Both the position numbers and the translations under genes were made by a program. The notes beneath the pieces were generated by a model. It made no database searches. It was given only the letters and a program-made list of their open reading frames with translations, and was not told the DNA's origin. Of a stretch of DNA of 41,814 bases, positions 17,729 to 40,516 are shown in pieces. The DNA is from Actinomycetota bacterium (GTDB taxonomy: Bacteria > Actinomycetota > Actinomycetes > Mycobacteriales > SCTD01), in NCBI GenBank assembly GCA_019348355.1, contig JAHWJP010000008.1:1-41814 (forward strand), in the 5' to 3' direction. Numbering within the stretch: the first letter of the stretch is position 1; the number at the start of each line of letters is the position of its first letter.

Positions 17729-20041
17729 GTGCCTGAGCTCGACGGGGGGGTGCTGTCCGGGCGGGCAGCACTGCTGGCCGATGTCGGCCTGACCGGACCG
17801 GCGCTGCGCACTGCTCTGGCCGCGCTGTACGACGGCTGGCTGGCCGGGCTGCTCGGGAATCCCGGCCCGGGGGTGGCGCTCGTCGCCGTCGGCGGGTTGG
17901 GCCGGTGCCAGATGGCGCCGGGCAGCGATCTCGACCTGGTGCTGATGCATGCAGGTGTCGATGACATAGGGAAAGTCGCCGACGCGCTGTGGTATCCGAT
18001 CTGGGACACCGGCTTGGACCTCGATCACTCGGTGCGCACCGTCGCCGAGGCGCTGGCCGTGGCCGCGGGCGACCTCAAGGCGGCCCTCGGACTGCTCGAC
18101 ACGCGACACATCGCCGGAGACGCGGGACTGTCCGCCGAGCTGCTCACCCGGACCCGCGCCGCCTGGCGGGCCGGCGCCGCCACCCGGCTCCCCGAGCTGC
18201 GGACGGCGGTGCTGGAGCGGGCAGCGAGCGAGGGGGAGGTGGCCTTCCTGCTCGAGCCCGACCTCAAGAGCGCGCGTGGGGGGCTGCGCGACGTGCACGC
18301 CCTGCAGGCCCTCGCCGCGGCGCAGGTCGCCGACCCGCCGGGCGGCCAGGTGCGGGCCGCGGCGCAGGTGCTGCTCGACGTCCGGGGAGAGCTGCACCGC
18401 AGCACGGCCGGTGCCGGCCGCCGCACGGTGGACCGGTTGCTCCTGCAGGAGCAGGACGCTGTCGCCGCAGCCCTGTCCTACGCCGACGCGGATGCCTTGA
18501 TGGCGGCCGTGTCGGGCGCCGGTCGGGTCATCGCCTACGCGGGCGACACCACGTGGCGGCGGATCTCGCCGGCGCCGCCGCGCCGCCGGCTGTTGGGCCG
18601 CCGAACGGGTCGCACCGGCGCGGCGGGCGAACGGCGGCCGCTGGCCGACGACGTCGTCGCGCAGGGCGGCGAGGTGGTGCTGGCCCGGGACGCCGACCCG
18701 TCGAAGGATCCGGTGCTGGTGCTGCGGGTGGCGCAGGCTGCTGCCTGGGCCGACCTGCCGATCGCTCCGCACACCCTGGCCCGGCTCGTCACCGAGTGCC
18801 CGCCCCTGCCGGTCCCGTGGCCCCGGCCCGCACTGGACGCCTTCGTGGGGCTGCTCGCCGCGGGAGGGCCGGCCGTGCACGTCTTCGAGGCGCTCGACCA
18901 GGCGGGCCTGCTCGTCGGGTTGCTGCCGGAGTGGGCGTCGGTGCGGAGCAAGCCGCAGCGCAACAGCTACCACCGGTTCACCGTGGACCGCCACCTCGTC
19001 GAGGCGGCCGCCGCAGCAGCCGGGTTGACCCGTCGGGTAGCGCGTCCGGACCTGCTGTTGCTCGGTGCGCTGCTGCACGACATCGGCAAGGGCCTGCCCG
19101 GCGACCACACCGTCGTCGGGATGCGGGTGGTGGCCGAGCTGGCGCCCCGGCTCGGTCTGCCGCCGCCGGACGTGGACGTCCTGGTGGCGATGGTCGAACA
19201 CCACCTGCTGCTGCCGGACGTCGCGACGAGGCGGGATCTCGACGACCCGGCGACAGCGCGCGCCGTCGCGGACGCGGTCGGCTCCGGGCAGGTGCTCGAG
19301 TTGCTGCACGCACTGTCCGAAGCCGACGCCGCCGCGACCGGCCCGGCTGCCTGGTCGAGCTGGAAGGCCGGGCTCGTCGACTCCCTCGTGGCGCGGACCG
19401 CCGCGCTGCTCGCGGGCACGCCGCCGCCCGGTCCGGCGCCGCTCGCCGACTGGCAGGAGAGGCTGGTCGCCGGGCGGGTCTTCGCCCTGCAGGCCCAGGA
19501 CGACGAGGTCACCGTGGTCGCCCCCGACCGTCCCGGCCTGCTGGGGCTGTTCACCGGCGTGCTGGCCCTGCACCGCCTCGACGTGCGCTCGGCCTCGCTG
19601 TTTCCGCGCAACGGGACCGCCGTCAACGTCTGCCGGGTCGCACCCCGGTTCGGCCGGCTGCCGGACTGGACCGTCGTCCGCGACGACCTGCGGCGTGCCC
19701 TTGACGGAGAGCTGGACCTCGAGCCGATGCTGGCCGCCCGCGAGGCGGCCTACGCCCCCAGGCTCTTTCTGCCGCCGCTGTCGGCGACGGTGCACCTCGT
19801 CGACGATGCCTCGCAGACCGCGACTGTCCTCGAGGTGCGGGCCGCCGACGCGCTCGGGGTGTTGCACCGGATCACCTGCGCGCTGGCCCGCTGCGGGGTC
19901 GACGTGCGGACCGCACACATCTCGACGCTCGGGGCTGACGTCGTGGACGCCTTCTACCTCGTCGGGCCGGACGGCGGGAAGCTTCACGATCCAGTTCTGC
20001 GGGACGACGTGGAGCGCTCGGTGCTGGCCGCCCTTCGGTGA
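17729..20041 (+). CDS. glnD: PII nucleotidyltransferase GlnD
   Basis: A bifunctional enzyme that nucleotidylates PII at Tyr51 and reverses it according to glutamine level; actinobacterial GlnD uses ATP. This 770-aa protein has the expected order: nucleotidyltransferase domain with GGLGRCQMAPGSDLDLVL (about 54-71); a helical linker; an HD hydrolase domain with LLGALLHDIGKGLPGDHT (about 443-460) and VEHHLLLPD; then two C-terminal ACT domains beginning at VTVVAPDRPGLLGLFTG (about 593) and TVLEVRAADALGVLHRI (about 698). The GTG start lies 6 bases after the second glnB stop, so it belongs to the amtB operon. It ends 3 bases before a convergent gene. Confidence 0.95.
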   Translation: MPELDGGVLSGRAALLADVGLTGPALRTALAALYDGWLAGLLGNPGPGVALVAVGGLGRCQMAPGSDLDLVLMHAGVDDIGKVADALWYPIWDTGLDLDHSVRTVAEALAVAAGDLKAALGLLDTRHIAGDAGLSAELLTRTRAAWRAGAATRLPELRTAVLERAASEGEVAFLLEPDLKSARGGLRDVHALQALAAAQVADPPGGQVRAAAQVLLDVRGELHRSTAGAGRRTVDRLLLQEQDAVAAALSYADADALMAAVSGAGRVIAYAGDTTWRRISPAPPRRRLLGRRTGRTGAAGERRPLADDVVAQGGEVVLARDADPSKDPVLVLRVAQAAAWADLPIAPHTLARLVTECPPLPVPWPRPALDAFVGLLAAGGPAVHVFEALDQAGLLVGLLPEWASVRSKPQRNSYHRFTVDRHLVEAAAAAAGLTRRVARPDLLLLGALLHDIGKGLPGDHTVVGMRVVAELAPRLGLPPPDVDVLVAMVEHHLLLPDVATRRDLDDPATARAVADAVGSGQVLELLHALSEADAAATGPAAWSSWKAGLVDSLVARTAALLAGTPPPGPAPLADWQERLVAGRVFALQAQDDEVTVVAPDRPGLLGLFTGVLALHRLDVRSASLFPRNGTAVNVCRVAPRFGRLPDWTVVRDDLRRALDGELDLEPMLAAREAAYAPRLFLPPLSATVHLVDDASQTATVLEVRAADALGVLHRITCALARCGVDVRTAHISTLGADVVDAFYLVGPDGGKLHDPVLRDDVERSVLAALR

Positions 20042-20044
20042 GCA

Positions 20045-20596
20045 TCACGTCACGCCGCGGCGGTCGGCTGGAGTACGAAACGGTGCGGCCTCCACCGCTG
20101 ACCACGGCCCACCTTCGTACCGCCACAGCGCGAGTCCCTGCGCCGTCACGTCGAAGCGGTGGAAGCCGGCGCTCAGCTGCGCGTGCAGCCGTCGGGCAGC
20201 AGCCGGCTCGACCTTGTTCTGCACCGTCACGTGTGGTGCGAGCCGCTGACGGTCCTGGGCGGTGAGCCACGGCTGCCACTGTGCCGAGAGGCCGGCATGC
20301 AGGTCGCTCACCTCGGCCGCGGCCAGCTCGAAGGCCACCCCGCGGCCGAGCGACCGCACACCGGTCACGGCGAGGGGGAACGGTTCTCGCTCGGCGGCTG
20401 CCCGGATGTCCACGGTCACCTGCTCGAGCCGGTCCCCGGGCAGGGCGTGGAACAGCGTCACATGGGCGGCGAGGTGGTTGCGCTCCGGCGGGAAGTGCTT
20501 GCCGCGCAGGACGTCGAACCACTCCTGCGATGCGGCGTCGAGCATCAGCGTCAGGACCAGCGGCGCCGAGATCTGCAGCACGGGCGCATCGGTCAC
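20045..20596 (-). CDS. 2H phosphoesterase (2'-5' RNA ligase family)
   Basis: A 183-aa protein with the two HxT motifs that define the 2H superfamily: HVTLFH (45-50) and HVTVQNK (122-128), about 75 residues apart as expected. Members act on 2',3'-cyclic or 2'-5' phosphodiester bonds in RNA or nucleotides; this one resembles the bacterial 2'-5' RNA ligase-like (LigT-type) group. The in vivo substrate is unknown. The start is a GTG overlapping the stop of the photolyase-related reading frame (GTGA), so the two were probably co-transcribed before the latter decayed. It converges with glnD. Confidence 0.82.
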   Translation of the reverse strand: MTDAPVLQISAPLVLTLMLDAASQEWFDVLRGKHFPPERNHLAAHVTLFHALPGDRLEQVTVDIRAAAEREPFPLAVTGVRSLGRGVAFELAAAEVSDLHAGLSAQWQPWLTAQDRQRLAPHVTVQNKVEPAAARRLHAQLSAGFHRFDVTAQGLALWRYEGGPWSAVEAAPFRTPADRRGVT

Positions 20597-21857
20597 GGCG
20601 GCTTGTCACCCCGCAATCGCTCCTGCTCGACGGTTGCCTCGAGGTCGCGCAGCCGGGCGAGCCCGGCCAGCGGCTGCCGCATCCGAGAGTTGTCGCGCAG
20701 GGCCTCGGCGTTGCGGTCGAGGAAAGCCCAATAGCCAGCCGTGTAAGGGCAGGCGGTGGGACCGACCCTGACCTTCGGGTCGTACGCGCAATTCCCGCAG
20801 TAGTCGCTCATCCGGTTGAGGTACGCGCCGCCGGCGGCGTACGGCTTGGTGGCCATCAGTCCGCCGTCCGCGTGCTGGCTCATGCCCGTGACGTTGGGCA
20901 GCATCACCCAGTCGTAGCCGTCGACGAACGCCTCGTGGAACCAGGCGGTGAGCTGCGCCGGATCCCAGCCCCGCTGCAGCGCGTAGTTGCCGAGCACCAT
21001 CAGCCGCGGGATGTGGTGCACCCAGCCCGCTCGCGAAGATCGCGCAGGACCGATGACAGGCAGTTCGCGACGACCTCTCCGCCCGCGTCGAGATCGCGAA
21101 ACCACGTCGGCAAATTTCCGCCCGTGAACAGGGCGTTGCCGAAGCGATAGTCGTCGGGGACGTGCCAGTAGATCGACCAGATGTACTCCCGCCAGCCGAT
21201 CACCTGCCGGACGTAGCCCTCGACCGACGACAGCGGGGCTGCCCCGTCGCGGTAGGCGGCTTCAGCGGCGTGCACGCACTCCAACGGGTGCAGCAGCCCG
21301 AGGTTGAGGGCGGGCGACAGCGCGCTGTGCGCCATCCAGGGGTCGGCGCCGAGCATGGCGTCCTCGGTCGGCCCGAAGTGCGGGAACCGGTGCTCGACGA
21401 AGTGGGCGAGTGCCGTCAACGCCTGGGTGCGGGTCGCCGGCGCCCAACGCGGTGCATCTTCCCCGACGAAGCTGACCCGGCCGTCACGTTCCCAGCGATC
21501 CAGGTCGGCACGGACCTCGGCGTCGATGTCGTCCTCGTCCGGGAGCCAGGGCCCGGTCAACCCCAAAATGGTGGTCCGCGGGGGCGGTTCGCGATTGTCG
21601 TGATCGAAGTTCCAGCGCCCGCCGACGGGGTCGGTTCCCTCCATGAGCAGGTCGTGCCGGGTCCGTTGCCAGCGGTAGAAGTCCTCCATCAGCAGCCGCC
21701 GCCGTCCGTCGGCCCAGTCGGCAAAGTCCTCCCGGCTGGCGGCGAAGCCGCGGGGCGGCAGAACCGGCAGACCACGGGCGCGTACGAACCGGTCGGCCGC
21801 CCAGGATGTGGTGCCCGCTTGACCTGGCCCCTGGGGCCAGATGTGGAGTGTGGTCAT
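20593..21857 (-). pseudogene. Truncated and frameshifted photolyase-related protein (DPRP family)
   Basis: Two minus-strand frames together make most of a deoxyribodipyrimidine photolyase-related protein, the FAD and 4Fe-4S cryptochrome-like family. The upstream frame (21857 to about 21030) has EDFYRWQRTRHDLLM, GGRWNFDHDNREPP and GWREYIWSIYW. The downstream frame (about 21030 to 20593) has HHIPRLMVLGNYAL, DWVMLPNVTGMSQHADGG and the Cys-rich YCGNCAYDPKVRVGPTACPY. The reading must drop back one base near 21025-21035, where the nucleotides read CGCGAGCGGGCTGG on the minus strand. About 100 N-terminal residues, the alpha/beta domain of intact homologues, are also missing. A single base error in the sequence would explain the shift but not the lost N-terminus. 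Confidence 0.75.
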
Positions 21858-21883
21858 GACCCGATCCCGGAGGGAGGTGACAC

Positions 21884-22027
21884 ATGACCACCACACAGCC
21901 CGAGGAGACCAAGGACGAGGCATGCGAGTGCGGATGCGCTTGCTGCGCAGCGCCGTCGAGCGACGAGCAGCAGCAGGCTCAGACCGATGAGGCCGCCGCC
22001 GCCTGCAACTGCGGCTGCGGCAAGTGA
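21884..22027 (+). CDS. 47-aa cysteine-rich, metallothionein-like protein
   Basis: A short gene with one of the best ribosome binding sites in the window: GGGAGG followed by 6 bases and an ATG. The protein has eight cysteines in two clusters, CECGCACC at 14-21 and CNCGCGK at 41-47 (the C-terminus), joined by an acidic, glutamine-rich linker without cysteine. There are no aromatic residues. That composition is typical of metallothioneins, which bind soft metals such as zinc, copper or cadmium through thiolate clusters. I do not recognise a specific named family. The gene is divergent from the photolyase-like pseudogene, only 26 bases apart, and ends just before a perfect 15-bp hairpin. A secreted role is unlikely because no signal peptide is present. 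Confidence 0.75.
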   Translation: MTTTQPEETKDEACECGCACCAAPSSDEQQQAQTDEAAAACNCGCGK

Positions 22028-22030
22028 ATC

Positions 22031-22075
22031 GTGCTCGGTGGCCGGCATTCCTCCAAGACTCCGGCCACCGAGCAC
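22031..22075. terminator. Perfect 15-bp hairpin, bidirectional terminator
   Basis: GTGCTCGGTGGCCGG (22031-22045) pairs perfectly with CCGGCCACCGAGCAC (22061-22075) around a 15-nt loop. It starts 3 bases after the metallothionein-like stop and ends 7 bases before the 3' end of the convergent GDSL gene, so it can stop both transcripts. Confidence 0.85.
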
Positions 22076-22082
22076 CTCTTGA

Positions 22083-23696
22083 TCAGGCCTTGAAACGCAG
22101 TGCCTTCCGCACCCAGTCGAGCGTCTGGTCGGCCCAGCCGAGGATGTCCAGTGTCGACCTCAGTAGCTGCGGCGGGTGCCGGACGAGAGTGTCCCGCAAG
22201 AGCAGACGCTCGAAGTCGACGGAGACCGGATCGGTGCGCAGGGCGCCGCTGCCCTGCAGGAACTCCACGCCGGCGAGCCGCATGATGTTGACCATCTCCT
22301 GCGCGATCATCCCGTAGCAGATGGTGGTCGGGTGCACACCGTCGAGCGAGAACAGCCCGCCGGTCGCCCGCCCGCCCTTGCCGTCGCCGGTCAGGAACCG
22401 CGAATCGGGTACGGGGTCCAGCGCGGCCAGCGACGGCGGCAGCGGATAGGGCGTCCACCACGAGGGGCGGGCGTTCGGGTCGTCGATGTAGCGGCGGGAG
22501 GCGAGCCGGTCCAGCAGCCCGGCGATGTCGAGCAGGTACCAGTCGCGGCCTGCTTCGCGGCCCTGCCGCACGTGTCCCTCGATCGCCTCGTTGTAGAGGT
22601 CGATGGCCGCGTCGACCGCTTGTGCCTCTGCGCCGGTGATGTGCTCGTCCTGTGCCGGGTTGAACGCCGACGCCGCGATCCAGGGGCGGCTGTAGTAGGG
22701 GAAGTAGGGCGAACCCGGCGTGGTCTTGCTGCCGAGGCCTCGGGCCACCGGCGCGATGGTCACGTGTGGCACGGTGCACCAGATGACGTGGCGGGCGTTC
22801 ACCGGCTCGACGGCCCGGACCAACTCGGCGTACTCGATCCGGAAGTGCTCGGGCTGCCAGACGGTGTAGGCGTTCTTGGCGGTCAGGTCCTGGAAGTCCT
22901 CGCCGCTCCAGGCGACCTTCAGCCTGGTCACGCTGCCCAGACAGTTGTTGGCGCCGAGGAACACGATGAGCGTCTCGATGCCGGGCTCGCCTGCGGCTGC
23001 GCCCTGCTCGCCGAGTGCCTTCGCCGCGTCGAGCAGGGTCTGCTGGCTGGTCGACGTCGACCAGTGCGGATAGACGTGCAGCGCGGCGCGCTGGACGTGG
23101 TTCTCGACGACCTGGGAGAGCAGATCGTCCTTGGGCGTCGCGACGGCCGCCTCGCAGCCGGCAGCGGTCGAGCTGAGGGCGTCGCGCAGATCCCACCCGT
23201 AGACCGCGAGTGCGTGGTTGTAGGCACGGACGACTGGAGCGACCCGACCCGGACCGCGCTCCCAGTAGTCCTCGACGCCGTCCATCCACGACCGCGCCCG
23301 GAACAGCGCGAGCGGCAGCTCCCACGGGCTCAGGTCGCGGCCGTACCGCTCCTCGAGCTCGCGCAGCAGGAACTCCAGGTTCAGCGGCAGCCCGCCGCCG
23401 GGCCCGCCGTACCGCGGGTAGCGGTAGGAGTCCGACCAGCCCAACTCGTGGGCGATGATCGCCGGGTAGGACAGGTCGGTGGCGAACACGGCCCCGCTCT
23501 GGAAGCCGTGGGTGAGCGAGTCGCCGAGAGCCACCAGTCGGTGCGGCGGGGTGGTCGTGCGTACGGGGCGGTCCACCTCGACGCCGAGCGTCGGGTCGAA
23601 GACCGGCGTCCGGCCCTCGCGGTCCAGCTGCTCGCGCACCTCCTCCGGGAGCCCAGGTGCGAGTCGCGCGTGCGTCCCGTGCGGTGTGTCAGCCAT
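22083..23696 (-). CDS. Large SGNH/GDSL-family hydrolase
   Basis: A 537-aa hydrolase. Block I is ALGDSLTHGF, with catalytic Ser60. YGGPGGGLPLN may supply the oxyanion glycine, FLGANNCLG the conserved asparagine, and SLDGVHPT (about 447-454) the Asp/His pair. GDSL enzymes are esterases or lipases; the substrate here is unknown. At more than 500 residues it is well above the usual 200-350, with a large insertion between blocks II and III. No signal peptide is visible, so it appears cytoplasmic. The ATG at 23696 is preceded by a G-rich AGGGGGG; an upstream in-frame ATG would add seven residues and place the start ahead of that site. It is divergent from ffh. Confidence 0.82.
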   Translation of the reverse strand: MADTPHGTHARLAPGLPEEVREQLDREGRTPVFDPTLGVEVDRPVRTTTPPHRLVALGDSLTHGFQSGAVFATDLSYPAIIAHELGWSDSYRYPRYGGPGGGLPLNLEFLLRELEERYGRDLSPWELPLALFRARSWMDGVEDYWERGPGRVAPVVRAYNHALAVYGWDLRDALSSTAAGCEAAVATPKDDLLSQVVENHVQRAALHVYPHWSTSTSQQTLLDAAKALGEQGAAAGEPGIETLIVFLGANNCLGSVTRLKVAWSGEDFQDLTAKNAYTVWQPEHFRIEYAELVRAVEPVNARHVIWCTVPHVTIAPVARGLGSKTTPGSPYFPYYSRPWIAASAFNPAQDEHITGAEAQAVDAAIDLYNEAIEGHVRQGREAGRDWYLLDIAGLLDRLASRRYIDDPNARPSWWTPYPLPPSLAALDPVPDSRFLTGDGKGGRATGGLFSLDGVHPTTICYGMIAQEMVNIMRLAGVEFLQGSGALRTDPVSVDFERLLLRDTLVRHPPQLLRSTLDILGWADQTLDWVRKALRFKA

Positions 23697-23837
23697 GTCG
23701 CCCCCCTGACGGCGCACCCCCCCGGCCCGCCTGGCACCTGAGCGTCCTCCGATGACGTCGCGCGCGTCAACCTCAGCGCCCTCGGACTAGGCTTCGACAA
23801 CCGCTTCCGACCGCCCACCTCGAAGTACTGGGGCCGC

Positions 23838-25403
23838 ATGTTCGACACGCTGTCCGACCGGCTCGACAAGGTCTTCACCTCCCTGCGGGGCAAGGGCCGA
23901 CTGTCCGACGCCGACATCGACGCCACCGCCCGCGAGATCCGCATCGCCCTGCTCGAGGCCGATGTGGCGCTGCCCGTCGTCAAGGCCTTCATCACCGCCG
24001 TGAAGGAGCGCGCGCGTGGCGTGGAGGTCAGCCAGGCGCTGAACCCGGCCCAGCAGGTCGTCAAGATCGTCAACGAAGAGCTGATCGGGATCCTCGGGGG
24101 CCAGACCCGGCTGATCCGCTACGCCAAGACGGCGCCGACGGTGATCATGCTGGCCGGCCTGCAGGGGGCCGGCAAGACGACGCTCGCCGGCAAGCTCGCC
24201 AAGCACCTCAAGGCCCAGGGCCACGCCCCGCTCCTGGTGGCCTGCGACCTTCAGCGCCCCAACGCCGTCCAGCAGCTGCAGGTGGTCGGTGCCCAGGCGG
24301 GGACCGACGTCTACGCGCCCTATCCGGGCAGCGGGGTCGGCGACCCGGTCGACGCGGCGCGCACGGCCCTCGAGCATGCCCGGCGGATGAACTACGACGT
24401 CGTCGTCGTGGACACCGCGGGCCGGCTCGGGATCGATGCCGAGCTCATGCAGCAGGCCGCCGACATCCGCGACGCCGTCCAGCCCGATGAGGTGCTGTTC
24501 GTGGTCGACGCGATGATCGGCCAGGACGCCGTGGTCACCGCCCAGGCGTTCCAGGACGGTGTCGGCTTCACCGGTGTGGTGCTCACCAAGCTCGACGGTG
24601 ACGCCCGCGGTGGCGCCGCGCTGTCGGTGCGGCACCTGACCGGCCAGCCGATCCTGTTCGCCTCGACCGGTGAGAAGCTCGGCGACTTCGACGTCTTCCA
24701 CCCCGAGCGGATGGCCTCCCGCATCCTCGGCATGGGCGACATGCTCACCCTGATCGAGCAGGCCGAGCGGCACTTCGACGCCGACGAAGCCGAGCGGATG
24801 GCCGGCAAGCTGGCCAGTGGCGAGAGCTTCGACCTCGAGGACTTCCTCGAGCAGATGATGCAGGTCAAGAAGATGGGCTCGCTGACGAGCCTGCTCGGGA
24901 TGCTGCCCGGCATGGGCCAGATGAAGGATGCGCTCGCGCAGATCGACGACAAGGACCTCGACCGCATCGCCGCGATCATCCGCTCGATGACGCCGCAGGA
25001 GCGGCGTACGCCCAAGATCCTCAACGGTTCGCGCCGCTCCCGGATCGCCAAGGGGTCCGGCGTCACGGTGACCGAGGTCAACAACCTCGTCGACCGCTTC
25101 TACGACGCGCAGAAGATGATGAAGCAGATGGGCGGCATGGCCGGGATCCCCGGCCTGCCGGGCATGGGCCGCAAGCAACGGTCGGCCAAGAAGCAGCAGG
25201 GGAAGAAGGGCAAGAAGGGTCCGGGCCGGGCCGGAGGCGGTCCCAGCTCGGCCGGTTCGCCCAAGGTGCCGGCCCAGCCGAAGGCACTGCCTCAGGGGAT
25301 GCCTCAACTGCCGCAAGGCTTCCCCCAACTGCCCCCGGGCTTCCCGCCGGCTCCCGGCGAGGATCTGCCCCCTGACCCGTTCGGACTGCGCCGCCCCCGC
25401 TAG
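23838..25403 (+). CDS. ffh: Signal recognition particle protein Ffh
   Basis: The SRP GTPase, which with 4.5S RNA binds signal sequences on ribosomes. This 521-aa protein has the N domain (MFDTLSDRLDKVF start), then the G domain with GLQGAGKTTLAGKLA (about 107-121), DLQRPNAVQQLQ, DTAGRLGIDAEL and TKLDGDARGGAALS. The Met-rich M domain follows, containing QMMQVKKMGSLTSLLGMLPGM and the RNA-binding GSRRSRIAKGSG. A C-terminal extension of about 70 residues is first lysine-rich (KKQQGKKGKKG) and then built from LPQGFPQLPPGFPPAP-like repeats; such tails occur in actinobacterial Ffh. The receptor FtsY is encoded upstream. Confidence 0.97.
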   Translation: MFDTLSDRLDKVFTSLRGKGRLSDADIDATAREIRIALLEADVALPVVKAFITAVKERARGVEVSQALNPAQQVVKIVNEELIGILGGQTRLIRYAKTAPTVIMLAGLQGAGKTTLAGKLAKHLKAQGHAPLLVACDLQRPNAVQQLQVVGAQAGTDVYAPYPGSGVGDPVDAARTALEHARRMNYDVVVVDTAGRLGIDAELMQQAADIRDAVQPDEVLFVVDAMIGQDAVVTAQAFQDGVGFTGVVLTKLDGDARGGAALSVRHLTGQPILFASTGEKLGDFDVFHPERMASRILGMGDMLTLIEQAERHFDADEAERMAGKLASGESFDLEDFLEQMMQVKKMGSLTSLLGMLPGMGQMKDALAQIDDKDLDRIAAIIRSMTPQERRTPKILNGSRRSRIAKGSGVTVTEVNNLVDRFYDAQKMMKQMGGMAGIPGLPGMGRKQRSAKKQQGKKGKKGPGRAGGGPSSAGSPKVPAQPKALPQGMPQLPQGFPQLPPGFPPAPGEDLPPDPFGLRRPR

Positions 25404-32361: not shown

Positions 32362-32910
32362 GTGCCCGGCCCCAGGATCACCAGCAGCCCGCCCCGGGCT
32401 GTCCTGTTCGACCGGGACGGCACGCTGGTGCACGACGTCGCCTACAACGGCGAACCCGCCCTGGTCCGGCCGGTCGACGGCGCGGCGCAGGCGCTCGCCT
32501 GGCTGCGCGCGGCCGGGATCCCGACCGCCGTCGTGTCGAACCAGAGCGGCATCGCCCGCGGCCTGCTCACCCGGGCTCAGGTGGACGCCGTCAACGCACG
32601 CGTCGCCGAGCTGCTCGGCCCGCTCGGCCCGGTCTTCGTCTGCGAGCACGGACCGCAGGACGGCTGCGCCTGCCGCAAGCCCGCTCCCGGCATGGTGCTG
32701 CAGGCCGCCGAGGCGCTGGGCGTGCCGCCGCAGGACTGCGTCGTGATCGGTGACATCGGTGCCGACATCGAGGCGGCGCAGGCCGCCGGCGCCCGCTCGG
32801 TGCTCGTCCCGACGCCGCGCACACTCCCGGCGGAGGTGACCGCCGCTCCCCTCGTCGCGAACAACCTCGCGGGCGCGCTTCGGGCGCTGTTCGCCGGGGC
32901 GCCGGAGTGA
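32362..32910 (+). CDS. gmhB: D-glycero-D-manno-heptose-1,7-bisphosphate 7-phosphatase (HAD family)
   Basis: Removes the 7-phosphate from heptose bisphosphate, the step between the kinase and nucleotidyltransferase activities of HldE. This 182-aa HAD protein has motif I LFDRDGTLVHD (Asp17, Asp19), motif II VVSNQSGIARG, the zinc-binding loop CEHGPQDGCACRKP (Cys94, His96, Cys102, Cys104) that marks GmhB and histidinol phosphatases, and motif IV VVIGDIGADIEAA. The GTG start at 32362 is favoured. Cluster neighbours GmhA and HldE support GmhB over a histidine role. Its stop overlaps the next start (GTGA). It is the first gene of the nine-gene glycan cluster. Confidence 0.88.
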   Translation: MPGPRITSSPPRAVLFDRDGTLVHDVAYNGEPALVRPVDGAAQALAWLRAAGIPTAVVSNQSGIARGLLTRAQVDAVNARVAELLGPLGPVFVCEHGPQDGCACRKPAPGMVLQAAEALGVPPQDCVVIGDIGADIEAAQAAGARSVLVPTPRTLPAEVTAAPLVANNLAGALRALFAGAPE

Positions 32911-33944
32911 CGCGGGTTCTGCTCGCGCGGCTCGACAGTGACGGCGACGTGCTGCTCGCGGGGCCCGCCGCCCGGGCCGTCGCCGCCGGGGCCGACGAGG
33001 TGGTGCTGCTCGCCGGCCCCCGGGGCGCCGCTGCCGCGCGCCTGCTGCCGGGCGTCGACGAGGTGCTGGTCTGGTCCTGTCCGTGGATCGAGGCCGACCC
33101 GGTGCCGCTCGACCCGGGCGCGGTCGAGCGGCTGGTGGGTGACCTGCGGGAGCGCCGCCTCGACGCCGCGCTGGTGCTGACCTCGTTCCACCAGAGCCCG
33201 CTGCCGCTGGCCCTCGTGCTGCGCCTGGCCGGGGTGCCCTGGGTCGGGGCGGTCAGCGAGGACTACCCCGGCTCGCTGCTGGACCTGCGCCACCGGCTGC
33301 CCGACACCGGACTGCACGAGGCGGAGCGGATGCGCTCGCTGGCAACCGCCGCCGGCTTCCCGCTGCCGAGCGCCGACGACGGCGGCCTCGCCCTGAGACG
33401 CCCGCTGCCCGACACCCGACACCTCACCGGTGACGAGCCCTACGTGGTTGTGCACCCCGGCGCGTCCGTGCCGGCGCGGGCCCCTTCACCTGCCTGGTTT
33501 CGCCGGCTCGTTCCGGCGCTTCGGCGCTTCGGCGTCCGCGTCATCGTGACCGGCGGACCATCCGAGCGGTCGCTGACCCGCTCGGTGGTCGCCTCATCAG
33601 CCCTCGACCTCGGCGGCCGCACCGACCTGGCCGGCCTCGCCGATGTGCTCGACCGGGCCGAGGCGGTGGTCGTCGGCAACACCGGCCCGGCCCACCTCGC
33701 CGCAGCGGTCGGGACGCCGGTCGTCTCGCTGTTCGCCCCGGTCGTGCCCGCCGAGCGCTGGCGGCCGTTCGGCGTGGAGCACGTCCTGCTCGGCGACCAG
33801 CTCGCCCCGTGCGCGGCCACCCGCGCCCGCGCCTGCCCCGTCCCTGGCCACCCCTGCCTCGACGGGATCGACGTCGGCGAGGTCGTCGACGCGGTGCGCC
33901 GGCTGACCCGCGTACCAGCCCGGAAACTGCAGGTGACCGCATGA
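32907..33944 (+). CDS. Glycosyltransferase family 9 (heptosyltransferase-like), first copy
   Basis: A 345-aa GT-B glycosyltransferase of the ADP-heptose family. The N-terminal domain opens VLLARLDSDGDVLLAGPAAR, and the C-terminal donor-binding domain has YVVVHPGASVPAR, VRVIVTGGPSERSL, and VVVGNTGPAHLAAAVGTPVV followed by LFAPVVPAERW. These are GT9 hallmarks. Acceptor and linkage cannot be deduced. It starts at a GTG overlapping the gmhB stop and ends overlapping the GT4 start, so the three are coupled. A second, more diverged GT9 closes the cluster. Confidence 0.88.
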   Translation: MTRVLLARLDSDGDVLLAGPAARAVAAGADEVVLLAGPRGAAAARLLPGVDEVLVWSCPWIEADPVPLDPGAVERLVGDLRERRLDAALVLTSFHQSPLPLALVLRLAGVPWVGAVSEDYPGSLLDLRHRLPDTGLHEAERMRSLATAAGFPLPSADDGGLALRRPLPDTRHLTGDEPYVVVHPGASVPARAPSPAWFRRLVPALRRFGVRVIVTGGPSERSLTRSVVASSALDLGGRTDLAGLADVLDRAEAVVVGNTGPAHLAAAVGTPVVSLFAPVVPAERWRPFGVEHVLLGDQLAPCAATRARACPVPGHPCLDGIDVGEVVDAVRRLTRVPARKLQVTA

Positions 33945-35179
33945 GGATCGCGATGGTCTCCGAGCACGCGAGCCCGCTCGCCGTGCTCGGCGGCGTCGAC
34001 GCCGGTGGCCAGAACGTGCACGTGGCCGCCCTGGCCGAGGCGATGGGTCGACGGGGCGCGGACGTGGTCGTACACACCCGTCGTGACGGCCCCGACCTGT
34101 CACGTCGGGTCCGCCTCGCGCCGCACGTCACCGTCGACCACGTCCCGGCCGGGCCGGCCAGGCACGTGCCGAAGGACGACCTGCTGCCGATGATGGACGA
34201 CCTCGCGGCCGATCTGCGGCGGCAGTGGCAGACCCACCGACCGGACATCGTGCACGCCCATTTCTGGATGAGCGGCTACGCCGCGATGCAGGCCGCCCAG
34301 CCGCTCGGCATCCCGGTCGCGCTGACCTTCCACGCGCTCGGCGTGGTCAAGAAGCGACACCAAGGCGTACGCGACAGCAGCCCGGTCGCGCGGCTTCCGG
34401 TCGAGGCCGAGCTGGTGCGCACCGCTGACCGGATCGTGGCGACCTGCACCGATGAGATGTTCGAACTGCTGCGGCTCGGCGGGGACCGCCGCCGGATGTC
34501 CGTGGTGCCCTGCGGTGTCGATCTCGGCGCCTTCCATCCCGGCGTGCCGCAGGAGCCGCGGCCGGACGGTCGGCACCGGATCCTCAGCGTGGGCAGGCTG
34601 ATCGAGCGCAAAGGCGTCGGCAACGTCATCGTCGCGCTCGGCCGGCTGCGGGCCGCCGGCGGACCGGACACCGAGCTGATGATCGCCGGGGGCCCGGACT
34701 CCAGCGAGTTGTGCGGGCACCCCGAGGTCACCCGGCTGCGCGAGATCGCCGAGCAGGCCGGGGTCGGTGATCGGGTGTTCTTCCGCGGCCGGGTCGGGCG
34801 CAAGGAGCTCCCGGCCCTGATCCGCTCGGCCGACCTGGTCGTGTGCGTGCCGTGGTACGAGCCGTTCGGGATCGTGCCGCTGGAGGCCATGGCCTGCGGT
34901 GTCCCCGTGGTGGCGGCCGCGGTCGGCGGGATCGTCGACAGCGTCGTCGACGGCCGGACCGGGCTGCACGTGCCGCCCCGCCGCCCCGACCTCATCGCCG
35001 ACGCACTGGCCGCGCTGCTGCCCGACCCGGCACGCCGGCGGGCCCTCGGCGAGGCGGCGGCGCGCCGGGCCCGCACCCGCTACTCCTGGGACCGCGTCGC
35101 CGCGCTCACCTTCTCCGCCTACGACGATCTGCTGCCCCTGCCCTGCGCCCAGCTGCTCACCCAGGAGGTGTTGTCATGA
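33941..35179 (+). CDS. Glycosyltransferase family 4
   Basis: A 412-aa retaining GT-B glycosyltransferase, starting at the ATG that overlaps the previous stop. The N-terminus MRIAMVSEHASPL followed by GGVDAGGQNVHVAALAEAM resembles the sucrose-phosphate-synthase/MshA-like branch. The C-terminal donor site has ILSVGRLIERKGVGNVI, and YEPFGIVPLEAMACGVPVV with the EX7E pair. The donor might be a nucleotide sugar other than heptose. It sits between GT9 and GmhA with stop-start overlaps on both sides, so it belongs to the same glycan pathway. No membrane segment is visible. Confidence 0.88.
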   Translation: MRIAMVSEHASPLAVLGGVDAGGQNVHVAALAEAMGRRGADVVVHTRRDGPDLSRRVRLAPHVTVDHVPAGPARHVPKDDLLPMMDDLAADLRRQWQTHRPDIVHAHFWMSGYAAMQAAQPLGIPVALTFHALGVVKKRHQGVRDSSPVARLPVEAELVRTADRIVATCTDEMFELLRLGGDRRRMSVVPCGVDLGAFHPGVPQEPRPDGRHRILSVGRLIERKGVGNVIVALGRLRAAGGPDTELMIAGGPDSSELCGHPEVTRLREIAEQAGVGDRVFFRGRVGRKELPALIRSADLVVCVPWYEPFGIVPLEAMACGVPVVAAAVGGIVDSVVDGRTGLHVPPRRPDLIADALAALLPDPARRRALGEAAARRARTRYSWDRVAALTFSAYDDLLPLPCAQLLTQEVLS

Positions 35180-35784
35180 CGCCGCTGCTGTCCGGAGCCG
35201 CCCACGTCTCGGCCCTGCTGACCGCCCTGCCGCTGCTCGACGTCGACCGGCTGGACGCGTGGGGCCGGCACCTCGCCGGCGCGCTGGTCGGGGGCAGTCG
35301 GCTGCTGGTGGCCGGCAACGGTGGCAGCGCCGCCCAGGCCCAGCACCTGACCGCCGAGCTGGTCGGGCGTTACCGCGACGACCGGCCGGCGCTGTCGGCG
35401 CTGTCCCTGCACGCCGAGACCTCCTCGCTGACCGCGATCGCCAACGACTACGGCTGGGACCACGCCTTCGCCCGCCAGGTGCAGGCGCACGGCCGCCCCG
35501 GCGACGTCTTCCTCGGGCTGTCCACGAGCGGGCGGAGCGGCAACGTGCTGGCCGCCATGCGGGCGGCCCGTGAGGGCGGCCTGACGGTCTGGGCGTTGAC
35601 CGGCGGCGGACCCAACCCGATGGTGGAGGCTGCAGACGAGTCCGTCACGGTCGTGGCTCCGGCCACCGCCACGGTGCAGGAGGTGCACCAGGTCGCGGTG
35701 CACCTGGTGTGTGCAGCCGTCGACCTGCAGGTCGGAGCTGACCGGTCGAGCAGCGCCGTCCAGCCGCAACGGGTCTCGCCGTGA
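35176..35784 (+). CDS. gmhA: Sedoheptulose-7-phosphate isomerase (SIS domain)
   Basis: Converts sedoheptulose 7-phosphate to D-glycero-D-manno-heptose 7-phosphate, the first committed step of ADP-heptose synthesis. In this 202-aa SIS-domain protein LLVAGNGGSAAQAQHLTAEL holds the phosphate-binding loop and the conserved His. ELVGRYRDDRPALSALSL, TAIANDYGWDHAFARQ and LGLSTSGRSGNVLAAM match GmhA, and EVHQVAVHLVCAAVD supplies the late histidine. The ATG at 35176 overlaps the GT4 stop, and the stop overlaps the hldE GTG. Confidence 0.92.
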   Translation: MTPLLSGAAHVSALLTALPLLDVDRLDAWGRHLAGALVGGSRLLVAGNGGSAAQAQHLTAELVGRYRDDRPALSALSLHAETSSLTAIANDYGWDHAFARQVQAHGRPGDVFLGLSTSGRSGNVLAAMRAAREGGLTVWALTGGGPNPMVEAADESVTVVAPATATVQEVHQVAVHLVCAAVDLQVGADRSSSAVQPQRVSP

Positions 35785-37178
35785 CAGCACGTCCGCTGGT
35801 CGTCGTTGGCGACGCGCTGCTCGACCGCGACCTCACCGGAACCGTCGAGCGGCTCTGCCCTGACGCGCCGGTCCCTGTCGTGGACGAGGCCGTCGACGTC
35901 CCCCGCCCGGGCGGCGCCGGCCTCGCGGCTCTGCTCGCCGCGACCGACGGCCGGCAGGTCGTGCTCGTCACGGCCCTCGCGGTGGACGCACCGGGACGCG
36001 AGCTCGCGACGCTGCTGAGCCGCGCCGGCGTCGAGGTCGTCGACCTTGGCCTGTCCGGTGCGACTCCGGAGAAGGTACGGGTTCGCAGCCAGGGCCGGTC
36101 GTTGCTGCGACTCGACCGCGGCGGGGCACCCGGGAAGGTGGGCTCGATGACCGCCGAGGCGGGTGCGGCTCTGGTCGGTGCCGGCGCCGTGCTGGTCGCC
36201 GACTACGGCCGGGGGGTGTGCTCGGCGCCCGGCCTGCGCGAGGCACTGACTGCCGCGGTGGCGCGGCACACTCCTGTTGTCTGGGACCCGCACCCCCGCG
36301 GCCGGGAGCCGGTGCCCGGGGTCACGCTGGCCACCCCCAACGGCGCCGAGGCAGCGCACTTCGCGCCCGGCCACAGCGGCGCGCTGCTGACCGCCACCAC
36401 CGCCCGCGCCCGGGAACTGCGCGAGCGCTGGCAGGCCACCACCGTCGCCGTCACCCTGTCCGGGCGCGGCGCCCTGCTCGTCGGAGGGAACGGGCCGCCC
36501 TCGGTCCTGCCGGCCCCGTTGGTGCCGTGCCCCGACCCGTGCGGCGCCGGGGACCGCTTCGCCTCCGCGGCCGCCGGGCTGCTCGCAGACGGCGCACTGC
36601 CCTCGGAAGCCGTCGCCGGCGCGGTGGCGGCGGCGAGCGCGTTCGTCGCCGCCGGCGGGGCGGCCGCCGTCCAGGTCGGCGATGGGGCAGCTCCCGCCGA
36701 CGGAGCTGCCGAACAAGCCGATGCGGTAGCACTTCTGGCGAGGGTGCGTGCCGCGGGTGGCACGGTGGTCGCGACCGGTGGCTGCTTCGACCTGCTGCAC
36801 GCCGGGCATGTCGCGGTCCTGTCCCAGGCGCGGGCGCTCGGCGACTGCCTGGTCGTCCTGCTCAACTCCGACGACTCGGTCTGCCGACTGAAAGGCCCGT
36901 CCCGCCCGCTGCAGTCGCAGGACGATCGCGCCGCCGTCCTGCTCGCTCTCGGCTGCGTCGACGCCGTCGTCGTGTTCGACGAGGACACCCCGTCCGAGGC
37001 CCTGGCTCGGCTGCGCCCTGACCTGTGGGCGAAGGGCGGGGACTACGCCCTGACCGACCTGCCGGAGGCTTCGGTGGTCGCCGGCTGGGGCGGCCAGGCG
37101 GTCGTGCTGCCCTACGTCGCCGGCCACTCCACGACCGCCCTGATCACCACTGCCAGGAAGGCCCTGCCCCATGTCTGA
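35781..37178 (+). CDS. hldE: Bifunctional heptose-7-phosphate kinase / heptose-1-phosphate adenylyltransferase
   Basis: Phosphorylates heptose 7-phosphate at C1 and, after GmhB action, adds AMP to give ADP-heptose. This 465-aa fusion has an N-terminal PfkB kinase opening LVVVGDALLDRDLTG and carrying the signature PCGAGDRFASAAAG at about 252-265, where Asp is the catalytic base. A short linker leads to a C-terminal nucleotidyltransferase domain with ATGGCFDLLHAGHVAVL (about 330-346), LNSDDSVCRLKGPSRP and YVAGHSTTALI. HIGH-type histidines are intact. The GTG start overlaps the gmhA stop. Both halves look complete, so full ADP-heptose synthesis is encoded with gmhA and gmhB. Confidence 0.93.
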   Translation: MTARPLVVVGDALLDRDLTGTVERLCPDAPVPVVDEAVDVPRPGGAGLAALLAATDGRQVVLVTALAVDAPGRELATLLSRAGVEVVDLGLSGATPEKVRVRSQGRSLLRLDRGGAPGKVGSMTAEAGAALVGAGAVLVADYGRGVCSAPGLREALTAAVARHTPVVWDPHPRGREPVPGVTLATPNGAEAAHFAPGHSGALLTATTARARELRERWQATTVAVTLSGRGALLVGGNGPPSVLPAPLVPCPDPCGAGDRFASAAAGLLADGALPSEAVAGAVAAASAFVAAGGAAAVQVGDGAAPADGAAEQADAVALLARVRAAGGTVVATGGCFDLLHAGHVAVLSQARALGDCLVVLLNSDDSVCRLKGPSRPLQSQDDRAAVLLALGCVDAVVVFDEDTPSEALARLRPDLWAKGGDYALTDLPEASVVAGWGGQAVVLPYVAGHSTTALITTARKALPHV

Positions 37179-37183
37179 GTCGC

Positions 37184-37894
37184 ATGTCTGAGCCGCTGTC
37201 CGATGACCGTTCGCTCGGGACCGTGCTCGTCACCGGCGCCGCGAGCGGACTGGGTGCGGCGGTCGCCGCCGCCGTCCGCGACGCCGGCGGCCGGCCGATC
37301 GCCTTGGACCGCGTCCCGGTCGAGGGGACGCCGCACGAGGTCGTCGACCTGTCCGACACCCGGGCAGCCGAGGCGGCGACCAGACGCCTCGTCGACCGGG
37401 CGGGGGGCGCTCTGGATGCGGTCGTCACCGCTGCCGGGACAGACCGCTGCGGCGCGCTCGGCGACGTCGACGGCCAGGACTGGGACCGGGTCGTGCTGGT
37501 CAACCTGCTCGGCACGGTCGCGGTCGTGCGGGCCTGCCTGCCGTACCTCCGGCGCAGCGACAACCCGCGCGTCGTCACGGTCGCCAGCACCCTCGGCCAT
37601 CGCGCCGTCGGGGACGCAACCGCCTACTGCGCAAGCAAGTTCGGCGTCGTCGGGTTCACTCGGGCCTTGCAGGCCGAGAGCAAGGGGCAGCTCGGCGTGA
37701 CCTTGCTGACTCCCGGCGGGATGTCGACGGCGTTCTTCGACGACCGCGACGAGCAGTACAAGCCCGGACCGGACGCGAAGCTCAACCGGCCTGAAGACGT
37801 CGCCGCCGCTGTCATTTTCACCCTCCGCCAGCCGCCCGGCTGCGAGATCAAGGAGCTGGTCGTCGCATCCGCCGAGGAAATCAGTTGGCCATGA
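37184..37894 (+). CDS. Short-chain dehydrogenase/reductase
   Basis: A 236-aa classical SDR that should oxidise or reduce a hydroxyl or keto group using NAD(P). TVLVTGAASGLGAAVA (about 13-28) is the nucleotide-binding turn, VTAAGT and the NLLGTVAVVRA asparagine follow, and VASTLGH gives the catalytic serine. YCASKFGVVGF gives Tyr/Lys at about 148/152. It is not an extended-type epimerase, so it is not an HldD homologue. It may modify the sugar made by this cluster. The ATG at 37184 was chosen; the ATG plus TCTGAG string also occurs 13 bases earlier in another frame across the hldE stop. Confidence 0.88.
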   Translation: MSEPLSDDRSLGTVLVTGAASGLGAAVAAAVRDAGGRPIALDRVPVEGTPHEVVDLSDTRAAEAATRRLVDRAGGALDAVVTAAGTDRCGALGDVDGQDWDRVVLVNLLGTVAVVRACLPYLRRSDNPRVVTVASTLGHRAVGDATAYCASKFGVVGFTRALQAESKGQLGVTLLTPGGMSTAFFDDRDEQYKPGPDAKLNRPEDVAAAVIFTLRQPPGCEIKELVVASAEEISWP

Positions 37895-37904
37895 GGCAGC
37901 TGCC

Positions 37905-39557
37905 GTGAAAGTCCTCGGGATCAACGCCGTCTTCCACGACCCGGCGGCCGCGCTCGTCGTCGACGGCGTGACCGTCGCCGCGGTCGAGGAGGAGCGCTTC
38001 ACCCGCCGCAAGCACGGCCACGACAACGTGCCGTTCGCCGCCTGGGAGGTGCCGCAGCAGGCCGCCGCCTGGTGCCTCGCGCAGGCCGGGCTGCGACCCG
38101 AGGACCTCGATGCGGTGAGCTACTCCTACGACCCGGCGCTGTGCGCGCCGGTCGAGGGGATGACCGTCGACCGGCTCGTCGAGGACGCCTGGGAGCCGAT
38201 GCGGACGCTGTACGCGCAGCGCGCCCCGCTGTTCCTGCGCACCGCGCTGCCGGGGCTCGACCCGGGGATCGTCCGCTACGTCCCGCACCATGTGGCGCAC
38301 GCCGCATCGGCCTACCTGGCGGCGCCCTACCCGGACAGCTCGGTGCTGGTGCTCGACGGGCGCGGCGAGACCGCCTCGCACCTCGCCGGGCGCAGCATCG
38401 GCGGCGACCTGGAGATCCTCGCCTCGCAGTCGCTGCCGCACTCGCTCGGGCTGCTCTACGAGGAGGTCACCGAGCACCTGGGATTCCGGCGCAGCAGCGA
38501 CGAGTACAAGGTGATGGCCCTCGCGTCGTACGGCACACCACGGTGGCTGGCGGAGTTCCGGTCGCTCGTGCGCACGACCGGTGACGGTGGCTTCGTCGTC
38601 GAGCCCATCGAGTGGGGTGCGTTCGTCAAGCCGGCACGCGCCGGTTCGCCGGCCGCCGCCATCGACCCGGACCAGGCCGATCTCGCCTCCACCGTGCAGA
38701 TCCGCTTGCAGGAGGTGCTGCTCGAGCTGGCGGCGTGGCTGTACGCCCAGACCGGCGACACGGCCCTGACGATGGCGGGCGGGGTGGCGCTCAACTGCGT
38801 CGCCAACAGCGTCCTGGCTGCGCGCGGGCCGTTCGAAAAGGTGTGGGTGCAGCCGGCGGCCGGCGACTCCGGGACAGCGCTCGGCGGCGCCATGTACGTC
38901 GCGCATTCGCTCGGCGACGCCGTCGCGCCGATGGCGACTGCTGCGCTCGGCCGCTCCTGGAGCGACGATGAGCTCGAGGCGTGGCTGACGACGGCGCAGG
39001 TGCCCTACACCCGCCCAGACGACATCGCCGAGACCGTCGCGGAGTGCCTCGCGGCCAACGGCATCGTCGCGTGGTTCCAGGGGGCCGCGGAGTACGGCCC
39101 GCGGGCGCTGGGTCACCGGTCGCTGCTGGCGCACCCGGGGCATCCGCAGAACCTCGAGCGGATGAACGACGTCAAGGGCCGCGAGCAGTTCCGCCCGGTC
39201 GCGCCGATGGTGCTGGTGGAGCGGGCCCACGAGATCTTCTCCGGGCCGGTCCCCTCGCCGTACATGCTGTTCACGCACGGCGTGCGAGCCGAGTGGCGCG
39301 AGCGGATCCCGGTCGTCACGCACATTGACGGCAGCGCCCGCATCCAGACCGTCGACCGCGCGGACGAGCCGCTCGTCGCCCGGATGCTCGCGGCGTTCGC
39401 CCGGCGCACCGGCATCCCTCTCGTGGTGAACACCTCGCTCAACACCGCCGGCCGGCCGATCGTCGACGACCCGCGCGACGCGCTGGAGTGCTTCGGCTCC
39501 GGGCCGGTAGACCTGCTCGCGCTCGGTCCGTTCGCCGTGCACCGCCAGCGGTCGTGA
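37905..39557 (+). CDS. Carbamoyltransferase (NodU/CmcH/TobZ family)
   Basis: A 550-aa O-carbamoyltransferase, which makes carbamoyl-adenylate from carbamoyl phosphate and ATP and transfers it to a sugar or antibiotic hydroxyl. The N-terminal kinase-like domain opens VLGINAVFHDPAAALVVDG. The iron-binding HHVAHAASAY (His128, His132) and VLVLDGRGE follow, with TMAGGVALNCVANSVL as a nucleotide-binding loop. The YrdC-like or C-terminal part has AAEYGPRALGHRSLL, GREQFRPVAPMVL and VVNTSLNTAGRPIVDDP. In this cluster the likely target is the heptose or its glycan. It starts at a GTG and its stop overlaps the GT2 start. Confidence 0.9.
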   Translation: MKVLGINAVFHDPAAALVVDGVTVAAVEEERFTRRKHGHDNVPFAAWEVPQQAAAWCLAQAGLRPEDLDAVSYSYDPALCAPVEGMTVDRLVEDAWEPMRTLYAQRAPLFLRTALPGLDPGIVRYVPHHVAHAASAYLAAPYPDSSVLVLDGRGETASHLAGRSIGGDLEILASQSLPHSLGLLYEEVTEHLGFRRSSDEYKVMALASYGTPRWLAEFRSLVRTTGDGGFVVEPIEWGAFVKPARAGSPAAAIDPDQADLASTVQIRLQEVLLELAAWLYAQTGDTALTMAGGVALNCVANSVLAARGPFEKVWVQPAAGDSGTALGGAMYVAHSLGDAVAPMATAALGRSWSDDELEAWLTTAQVPYTRPDDIAETVAECLAANGIVAWFQGAAEYGPRALGHRSLLAHPGHPQNLERMNDVKGREQFRPVAPMVLVERAHEIFSGPVPSPYMLFTHGVRAEWRERIPVVTHIDGSARIQTVDRADEPLVARMLAAFARRTGIPLVVNTSLNTAGRPIVDDPRDALECFGSGPVDLLALGPFAVHRQRS

Positions 39558-40516
39558 GCGAGTCGCTGGTCGCCGTGGTGATGCCGACGGTGGGGCGGGC
39601 GTCGCTGGCGCCGGCGCTGGCGCCGCTGGTCGGTCGGCTGCCCGTCGTCGTGGTTGACGACCGGCCGGGAGAGCCTGCCCCGCTGGAGGTTCCCGCGGGG
39701 GTCACTGTCGTCCACGGCGGGGGCCGCGGGCCTGCGGCCGCGCGCAACGCCGGCTGGCGGGCGAGCCGGGCGACCTGGATCGCGTTCCTCGACGATGACG
39801 TGCTCCCACCGCCCAACTGGGTCGAGGCCTTGCATGGCGACCTCGCCCGTTGCGCGGCCGACGTGGGAGGCAGCCAGGGACGGCTGGTCGTCCCGCTCCC
39901 GGCGGGTCGTCGACCGACCGACTGGGAGCGCAGCACCGCCGGGCTCGAGTCCGCGGTGTGGGCGACGGCGGACCTGGCCTACCGGCGGGCGGCCCTTCTG
40001 TCGGTGGGCGGCTTCGACGAGCGGTTCCCGCGCGCCTACCGGGAGGACGCCGACCTCGGCCTGCGGGTGGAGGAGGCCGGCTGGCGGATCGTGCGCGGCG
40101 ACCGGCACGTCCACCACCCCGTACGCCCTGCGCACTGGACTCAGAGCATCCGCAGCCAGCGCGGGAACGCCGACGACGTGCTGATGCGCGCGGTGCACGG
40201 CCGGCGCTGGCGGGCCCGCGCGCACGTACCGCCCGGTCGTCGGCGCTGGCACCTGGCCACCACCGCTGCGCTGGCCGTCGCTGCGGCCGGGGCAGCGCGG
40301 GGTGACAAGCGCACGGCGGTGACGGCCGGGCTCGGATGGCTGGCGCTCACCGCCGATCTGACCGCCCGCCGGGTGGCGCCCGGGCCCCGCACGCCCGCCG
40401 AGGTGGGCACGATGACGGTGACCTCCGTGGCGCTGCCGGTCGCGGCCGTGCGGTGGTGGCTCTCCGGGTGGGTGCGGTTGCCCGCGCTGCTGCGCCAGGG
40501 TGGTCCGGCGCCGTGA
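39554..40516 (+). CDS. Glycosyltransferase family 2
   Basis: A 320-aa GT-A inverting glycosyltransferase. The GTG at 39554, overlapping the carbamoyltransferase stop, is the natural start (VSESLVAVVMPTVGR). RGPAAARNAGWRAS and ATWIAFLDDDVLPPPNW give the nucleotide-sugar site with the DxD-type acidic cluster. GGFDERFPRAYREDADLGLRV contains the ED catalytic-base region. The last 90 or so residues include hydrophobic runs (LATTAALAVAAAGAA, MTVTSVALPVAAVRWWL) that could hold the enzyme at the membrane. Donor and acceptor are unknown. Confidence 0.87.
   Translation: MSESLVAVVMPTVGRASLAPALAPLVGRLPVVVVDDRPGEPAPLEVPAGVTVVHGGGRGPAAARNAGWRASRATWIAFLDDDVLPPPNWVEALHGDLARCAADVGGSQGRLVVPLPAGRRPTDWERSTAGLESAVWATADLAYRRAALLSVGGFDERFPRAYREDADLGLRVEEAGWRIVRGDRHVHHPVRPAHWTQSIRSQRGNADDVLMRAVHGRRWRARAHVPPGRRRWHLATTAALAVAAAGAARGDKRTAVTAGLGWLALTADLTARRVAPGPRTPAEVGTMTVTSVALPVAAVRWWLSGWVRLPALLRQGGPAP

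Follow-up and report, generated by a model that had tools for sequence, protein, structure and literature searches.

We propose that a short cysteine-rich open reading frame (ORF 21884-22027), located in the 41,814-nt stretch of DNA that was analysed (the window), likely encodes a small cytosolic metallothionein-like peptide that sequesters a thiophilic metal and is transcribed from a MerR-family promoter under the control of the sensor P0002. We read the ORF as a probable metal-sponge peptide because it is apparently switched on by a metal-sensing regulator of the same genome. The observations behind this are an ORF with a ribosome binding site and host-like codon usage, an operator with MerR-family geometry and a copy of it at the sensor gene, and the co-occurrence of sensor and peptide in two congeners. 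The coordinates of the features are collected in Table 1.

The peptide, MTTTQPEETKDEACECGCACCAAPSSDEQQQAQTDEAAAACNCGCGK, contains 8 Cys in 47 aa (17%), and His, Phe, Tyr and Trp are all absent. With its CxCxCxCC and CxCxC clusters it has the properties of the metallothionein class, i.e. fewer than 100 aa, a high Cys content, clustered CxC/CC motifs and few or no aromatic residues. Metallothioneins further bind several d10 metal ions as thiolate clusters and are expressed in response to metal; with regard to the latter, the ORF has a metal-sensor-type operator (see below). The first-pass annotation had claimed a 47-aa gene at exactly these coordinates, with eight cysteines in CECGCACC and a terminal CNCGCGK, and we found the frame on the + strand, with 5 + 3 Cys in these two motifs. 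The excellent ribosome binding site that it also claimed was borne out, as the Shine-Dalgarno (SD) sequence is optimal and GGAGGTGA-N3-ATG (21873-21886) is the sole such site on both strands of the 41.8 kb, with 0.01 expected from shuffles. Codon adaptation of the ORF was 0.69, as compared to 0.67-0.80 in the neighbouring genes, and a composition-only synonymous null attained the codon score of the ORF in 0.25% of trials. Since host-like codon usage is rarely reached by the null, the ORF reads as a coding frame and, judged by its SD and codon usage, it is a real gene. An antisense ORF of 73 aa (21854-22075) was rejected as the gene, since its codon score was worse, it overlaps the hairpin described below and it had no Pfam match above cut-off. 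The peptide would be expected to be disordered in the apo form, with a disordered, acidic/Gln-rich linker between the two clusters.

Table 1. Features of the cysteine-rich ORF, its control region, its surroundings and the related sensor genes.
Feature	Position	Strand	Basis or remark
Cys-rich metallothionein-like peptide gene, 47 aa	21884..22027	+	ORF read, composition, codon usage
First thiolate cluster CECGCACC, 5 Cys	21923..21946	+	translation
Second thiolate cluster CNCGCGK, 3 Cys	22004..22024	+	C-terminal module common to the G002 peptide
Shine-Dalgarno GGAGGTGA, 3 nt 5' of ATG	21873..21880	+	window-wide count
−35 element TTGACC, MerR-family-type promoter	21819..21824	+	read directly; identical in 3/3 site copies
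MerR-type operator ACCTGGCCCCTGGGGCCAGAT, 21 bp	21822..21842	+	inner 17 bp (21824-21840) perfect dyad
Candidate −10 TGGAGT, weak, 19-bp spacing typical of MerR-controlled promoters	21844..21849	+	inference; poor match
Perfect 15-bp hairpin, no U-tract, between convergent ORF and SGNH hydrolase gene	22031..22075	.	folding, terminator scan
Broken DPRP-type photolyase, left border of cassette	20593..21857	−	homology searches
glnD-ffh interval	window 20041-23838		variable accessory slot in family
MerR-family sensor gene P0002, 168 aa	L147 1969-2475		other contig of the window's genome
MerR-family sensor gene, frame continuing into 66-aa metallothionein-like peptide	L145 828-1484, G002 contig 56	−	

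Upstream of the ORF, TTGACC is followed by CTGGCCCC-t-GGGGCCAG, and the dyad uses the last C of the −35 element (21819-21840). The dyad centre (21832) is separated by 7 nt from the end of the −35 element (21824), which is the centre position expected in the MerR family, and the operator is oriented towards the ORF. In 21-bp sites of the CueR/CadR type the dyad centre likewise lies 7 bp from the −35 element (PMC5045206), and promoters of the MerR family have an overlong −35/−10 spacer of 19-20 bp, within which lies the dyad bound by the regulator (PMC9909328). The poor −10 at the ORF promoter (TGGAGT, 19 bp) is counted against our reading. Chance matches to the operator at ≤3 mismatches occurred at 0.05 per shuffled window; the real window had 2, the site and its own reverse-strand reading.

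The operator was then searched for in 24 genomes of the family, allowing up to 3 mismatches, which gave four places: the window site, G000:C83, the congener G002 and G019:C54. The sole other copy at ≤1 mismatch was the one in the window's own genome (G000:C83:1932-1953, 21/22 identical), and it ends 15 bp 5' of the ATG of a MerR-family gene (L147), the position of a site for a cognate regulator. The copy in G002 has 3 mismatches and lies 16 bp 5' of the ATG of the orthologous MerR gene; the operator-ATG spacing suggests that the merR transcripts of P0002 and its orthologue are leaderless. The generalised pattern TTGACCTGNCCCNNGGGGCCNG matched exactly, in 9 genomes of the genus, at three sites alone, in front of the ORF, the own merR and the G002 merR. 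The match at G019:C54 lies within an unrelated coding frame and was judged to be due to chance, and the remaining 2-mismatch matches had an incomplete dyad or no TTGACC box. The ORF thus appears to be under a MerR-family metal-sensor promoter whose putative regulator is unlinked in the same genome, and the operator common to the ORF and the metal-sensor gene lends support to the label "metallothionein-like" given to the peptide earlier.

The presumed regulator P0002 matched Pfam MerR_1, MerR and MerR-DNA-bind, and its nearest solved structure is CueR (E 8e-16). Its scores fell below the NCBIfam equivalog cut-offs of all named subfamilies (75.1 of 147.4 bits for CueR, 67 of 168 for ZntR). P0002 and its orthologue in G002 (66-68% identical) have in common CGS[P/L]LCTCPV and a Cys-rich C-terminal tail, which in P0002 is short (CGCGGC). 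The C-x4-C-x-C of the first motif is plausibly the metal loop, and it suggests a thiophilic metal. Metal classes in such sensors are separated by one column, with Ser77 for Cu/Ag and Cys for Zn/Cd/Hg; as P0002, in the structure alignment, has neither Ser nor Cys at the column setting metal valence in CueR/CadR, its metal is not nameable from sequence. The window's genome is a MAG-like draft of 259 contigs, with a completeness of 87.96% and a contamination of 1.31%, and, since ORF and sensor are on different contigs of an incomplete MAG, their proposed link assumes correct binning; it is based on the binning, the 21/22 operator identity and the orthologue in the congener.

In the mechanism we propose, the CueR/ZntR-like P0002 would sit on the 21-bp dyad in the −35/−10 spacer and the promoter would be silent without metal. 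Metal binding by the C-x4-C-x-C loop would distort the DNA and thereby activate the promoter, so that the metal-loaded sensor would switch on the peptide gene as well as its own. Sensor and sponge would rise together, because the operator stands at both genes. The eight thiolates (5 + 3) would then sequester a thiophilic metal, of either the Cu(I)/Ag(I) or the Zn/Cd/Hg/Pb class, and the peptide would buffer the metal and contribute to its detoxification.

A related arrangement is seen in G002, where the sensor frame continues via AGGAGAGGAGGTGAAAAGATG into MTSIEKDEQNTATASGCGCGCATDTAGGEKAATASGCGCGCATDTEAGNKATQPTKDGSCGCGCGN-stop and a further hairpin lies behind the stop codon. The Cys-rich peptide of this species is encoded within the 3' end of the sensor gene, in the same frame, and has its own perfect SD (GGAGGTGA) and ATG, and L145 is possibly a nested or fused sensor-metallothionein gene. 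Its terminus is CGCGCGN-stop, and both peptides end in CGCG[K/N]-stop. It is the sole likely relative of the window peptide, and the likeness of the two is limited to the C-terminal CxCGCG[K/N]-stop, the CGCxC modules and the composition. The DNA alignment of the two peptides scored 64, as compared to a maximum of 61 in shuffles. Sequence searches alone did not connect the window and G002 peptides, because they are short and repetitive, and common descent is plausible. A more tentative idea, which we regard as possible and rather doubtful, is that G002 represents the ancestral state, in which one frame gives a sensor with a metallothionein tail as well as a free peptide from an internal start. 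This would have been split in the window's species, the sensor keeping its CGCGGC tail and the peptide lying, behind an operator copy, at an accessory locus that is not linked to the sensor gene. If true, a sensor that shares its frame with its own metallothionein would constitute an unusual feedback circuit.

The same arrangement bears on what a MerR-controlled peptide would do. Instead of serving as a detoxifying sponge, it could take metal away from the sensor, as a metallochaperone or feedback buffer would, since CGCG motifs like those of the peptide are present in the sensor tails of both species, and sensor and peptide in one frame in G002 suggest thiol-to-thiol exchange. We consider this unlikely, as the scanned surroundings of the ORF are without a partner pump or metalloenzyme gene and the peptide has neither a ferredoxin-like chaperone fold nor a CxxC motif.

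The ORF lies between glnD and ffh. In the relatives L119, L120, L124, L125, L126, L130, L133 and L134, among others, these two genes are separated by only tens to a few hundred bases, while the gap carries differing cargo in the window and a few congeners. As the glnD-ffh gap is near-empty in several relatives and has varied cargo in others, it is an accessory slot. Elsewhere it holds glycosyltransferases (G003, L131) or an RNA ligase and a long secreted-like protein (G008, L132). In the window, the Cys-rich ORF shares the slot with a 2'-5' RNA ligase-like gene, a broken DPRP-type photolyase and a GDSL/SGNH hydrolase gene. The photolyase is without its first ~90 codons, its homology begins at 21809 and its frame changes near 21003-21030. 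No trace of the missing 5' part was found anywhere in the window, and congeners have intact copies, located at other loci. Together with its control region the ORF occupies about 21815-22075 and fits exactly between the truncated photolyase end and the hydrolase. Conservation by synteny is impossible as a test of the ORF, since in relatives glnD and ffh adjoin or the slot cargo differs. The SGNH hydrolase gene was not found in the other 23 genomes of the family; it was rejected as a partner of the ORF, as the loci of its homologues, seen in 5 further genomes of the order, are without a small Cys-rich SD-bearing ORF. A sugar-modification cluster is located at 32362-41448 (HAD hydrolase, GT9 and GT4 glycosyltransferases, PfkB kinase/cytidylyltransferase and carbamoyltransferase).

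In a Pfam scan of the ten larger flanking ORFs we found no metal pump, no peptide-modifying enzyme and no other metal gene; the lack of a neighbouring metal gene counts against our reading. The composition of the peptide resembles that of a RiPP precursor, in which an acidic leader (MTTTQPEETKDEA) would be followed by an enzymatically modified Cys-rich core, and its NCBIfam match to a family of sactipeptide bacteriocins was non-significant (E 0.87). However, with the modification enzyme absent from the scanned ORFs, a photolyase, an RNA ligase, an SGNH hydrolase and housekeeping genes as neighbours, and a metal-sensor-type operator in front of the gene, a RiPP origin is highly unlikely.

Downstream of the ORF, the arms 22031-22045 and 22061-22075 pair perfectly over 15 bp and form a stable hairpin (z = −4.7). 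Of the "perfect terminator" claimed by the first-pass annotation the perfect hairpin stood, whereas the U-tract is missing: the terminator scan found none at the ORF 3' end, and no T run follows the hairpin. Probably, the hairpin is a shared bidirectional transcript end of the two convergent genes. With a strong hairpin behind it, a short ORF rich in Cys could also attenuate a downstream operon in response to cysteine, and leaderless polycysteine ORFs of mycobacteria are known attenuators of this kind. For the present ORF this is scarcely credible, as the same strand is gene-free for 1.8 kb downstream, the next gene is convergent, and the ORF has an SD and hence is not leaderless.

Both sensor and peptide are rare. 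MerR orthologues at E≤1e-25 were found in 2 of the 299 genomes of the order, the window's genome and G002, and a true Cys-rich protein with the terminus C-x-C-G-C-G-[K/N]-stop was confined, among 394 genomes of the order, to the same two. No sequence homologues of the 47-aa peptide were found in 61 relatives, 397 genomes of the phylum, plasmids or phages, and weak HMM matches fell in large GC-rich frames. When 399 genomes of the order were searched with the exact 8-Cys DNA pattern, no second plausible small protein came up, the other matches being long frames or repeats rich in TG. A Cys pattern conserved among relatives, which had been named as a check of the gene, was strictly not seen, the exact pattern being confined to the window's genome, and purifying selection on the peptide is not measurable because these searches gave no close homologue. 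The peptide had no Pfam (E≤1), NCBIfam, PHROG or PDB match and its Cys pattern differs from that of MymT, in agreement with the earlier statement that it is neither SmtA nor MymT; Rfam gave no meaningful match at the locus. A pattern scan of public genomes gave six Cys-rich frames in distant taxa, which are alike in kind, with homology not provable. Unannotated-looking Cys-rich peptides with a terminus of CGCGK or near were seen in a Patescibacteria MAG (L090 7308-7394, MKHDKKKVCDCGCGCDCGCGKGKKCTCGPDCPCGCGK) and a Bryobacteraceae MAG (L086 3306-3395). Bifidobacterium dolichotidis has a long Cys-rich frame with repeated CxCGCx modules, like concatenated metallothionein units (L088 6714-6824), and an Alphaproteobacteria MAG has tandem repeats of CKCGCQEGKECTCGCDKD 5' of a longer, possibly membrane-bound protein (L087 2130-2234).

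The lack of sequence-level homologues, the poor −10 and the location in a scar beside a truncated gene would agree with a chance ORF, the operator being there by coincidence or driving an RNA that is not translated. This is improbable in view of the perfect operator, SD, codon bias and Cys clusters in correct order and orientation, and of the parallel sensor/peptide arrangement in G002. Taken together, a regulator binding site pinpointed a gene despite undetectable homologues, which suggests that orphan metallothioneins can be searched for via metal-sensor operators rather than by protein similarity.

What is known of bacterial metallothioneins comes chiefly from MymT and the SmtA-like proteins, and short ORFs rich in Cys seldom receive an annotation. 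The ORF product does not belong to the SmtA family and probably represents a hitherto undescribed type of metallothionein-like peptide. Like SmtA/BmtA (MT family 14, Pfam Metallothio_Pro, PF02069) it is a Cys-rich candidate sequestration peptide of ~50 aa paired with a metal-sensing repressor or activator, but it is without Pfam match, zinc finger or His ligands, and its predicted control is of MerR type instead of the ArsR/SmtB type. MymT of Mycobacterium tuberculosis is likewise encoded by a tiny, unannotated, Cys-rich actinobacterial ORF, although it has no sequence similarity to the window peptide and its control is of the CsoR/RicR type, not the MerR type. On the regulatory side, P0002 shares with CueR/ZntR/CadR the DNA-binding and dimer regions of MerR, and the operator resembles their sites in its TTGACC and its 21-bp dyad centred 7 bp from the −35 element, whereas P0002 differs from them in scoring below every equivalog cut-off and in its C-x4-C-x-C loop and Cys-rich tail.

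Metallothioneins predicted in silico in actinobacteria, including Frankia MT candidates, are short, Cys-rich proteins as well, but as far as they are described in PMC4531530, citing Schmidt et al. 2010, they contain CXXC with His, and the window peptide has neither. The nearest functional precedent, by analogy, is the CadR-controlled Zrd of Pseudomonas aeruginosa PAO1, a member of the CadR regulon whose induction by Zn/Cd through CadR was demonstrated (PMC12301328), whereas metal induction of the window peptide is predicted. Zrd has two zinc ribbons (CXXC-N10-CXXC), in contrast to the CxCxCxCC + CxCxC of the window peptide, which has no CxxC. In common with Zrd, the window peptide is encoded by a small, Cys-rich, previously unannotated ORF between other genes, with an unlinked dyad for a MerR-family metal sensor and a proposed metallothionein-like role (PMC12301328).
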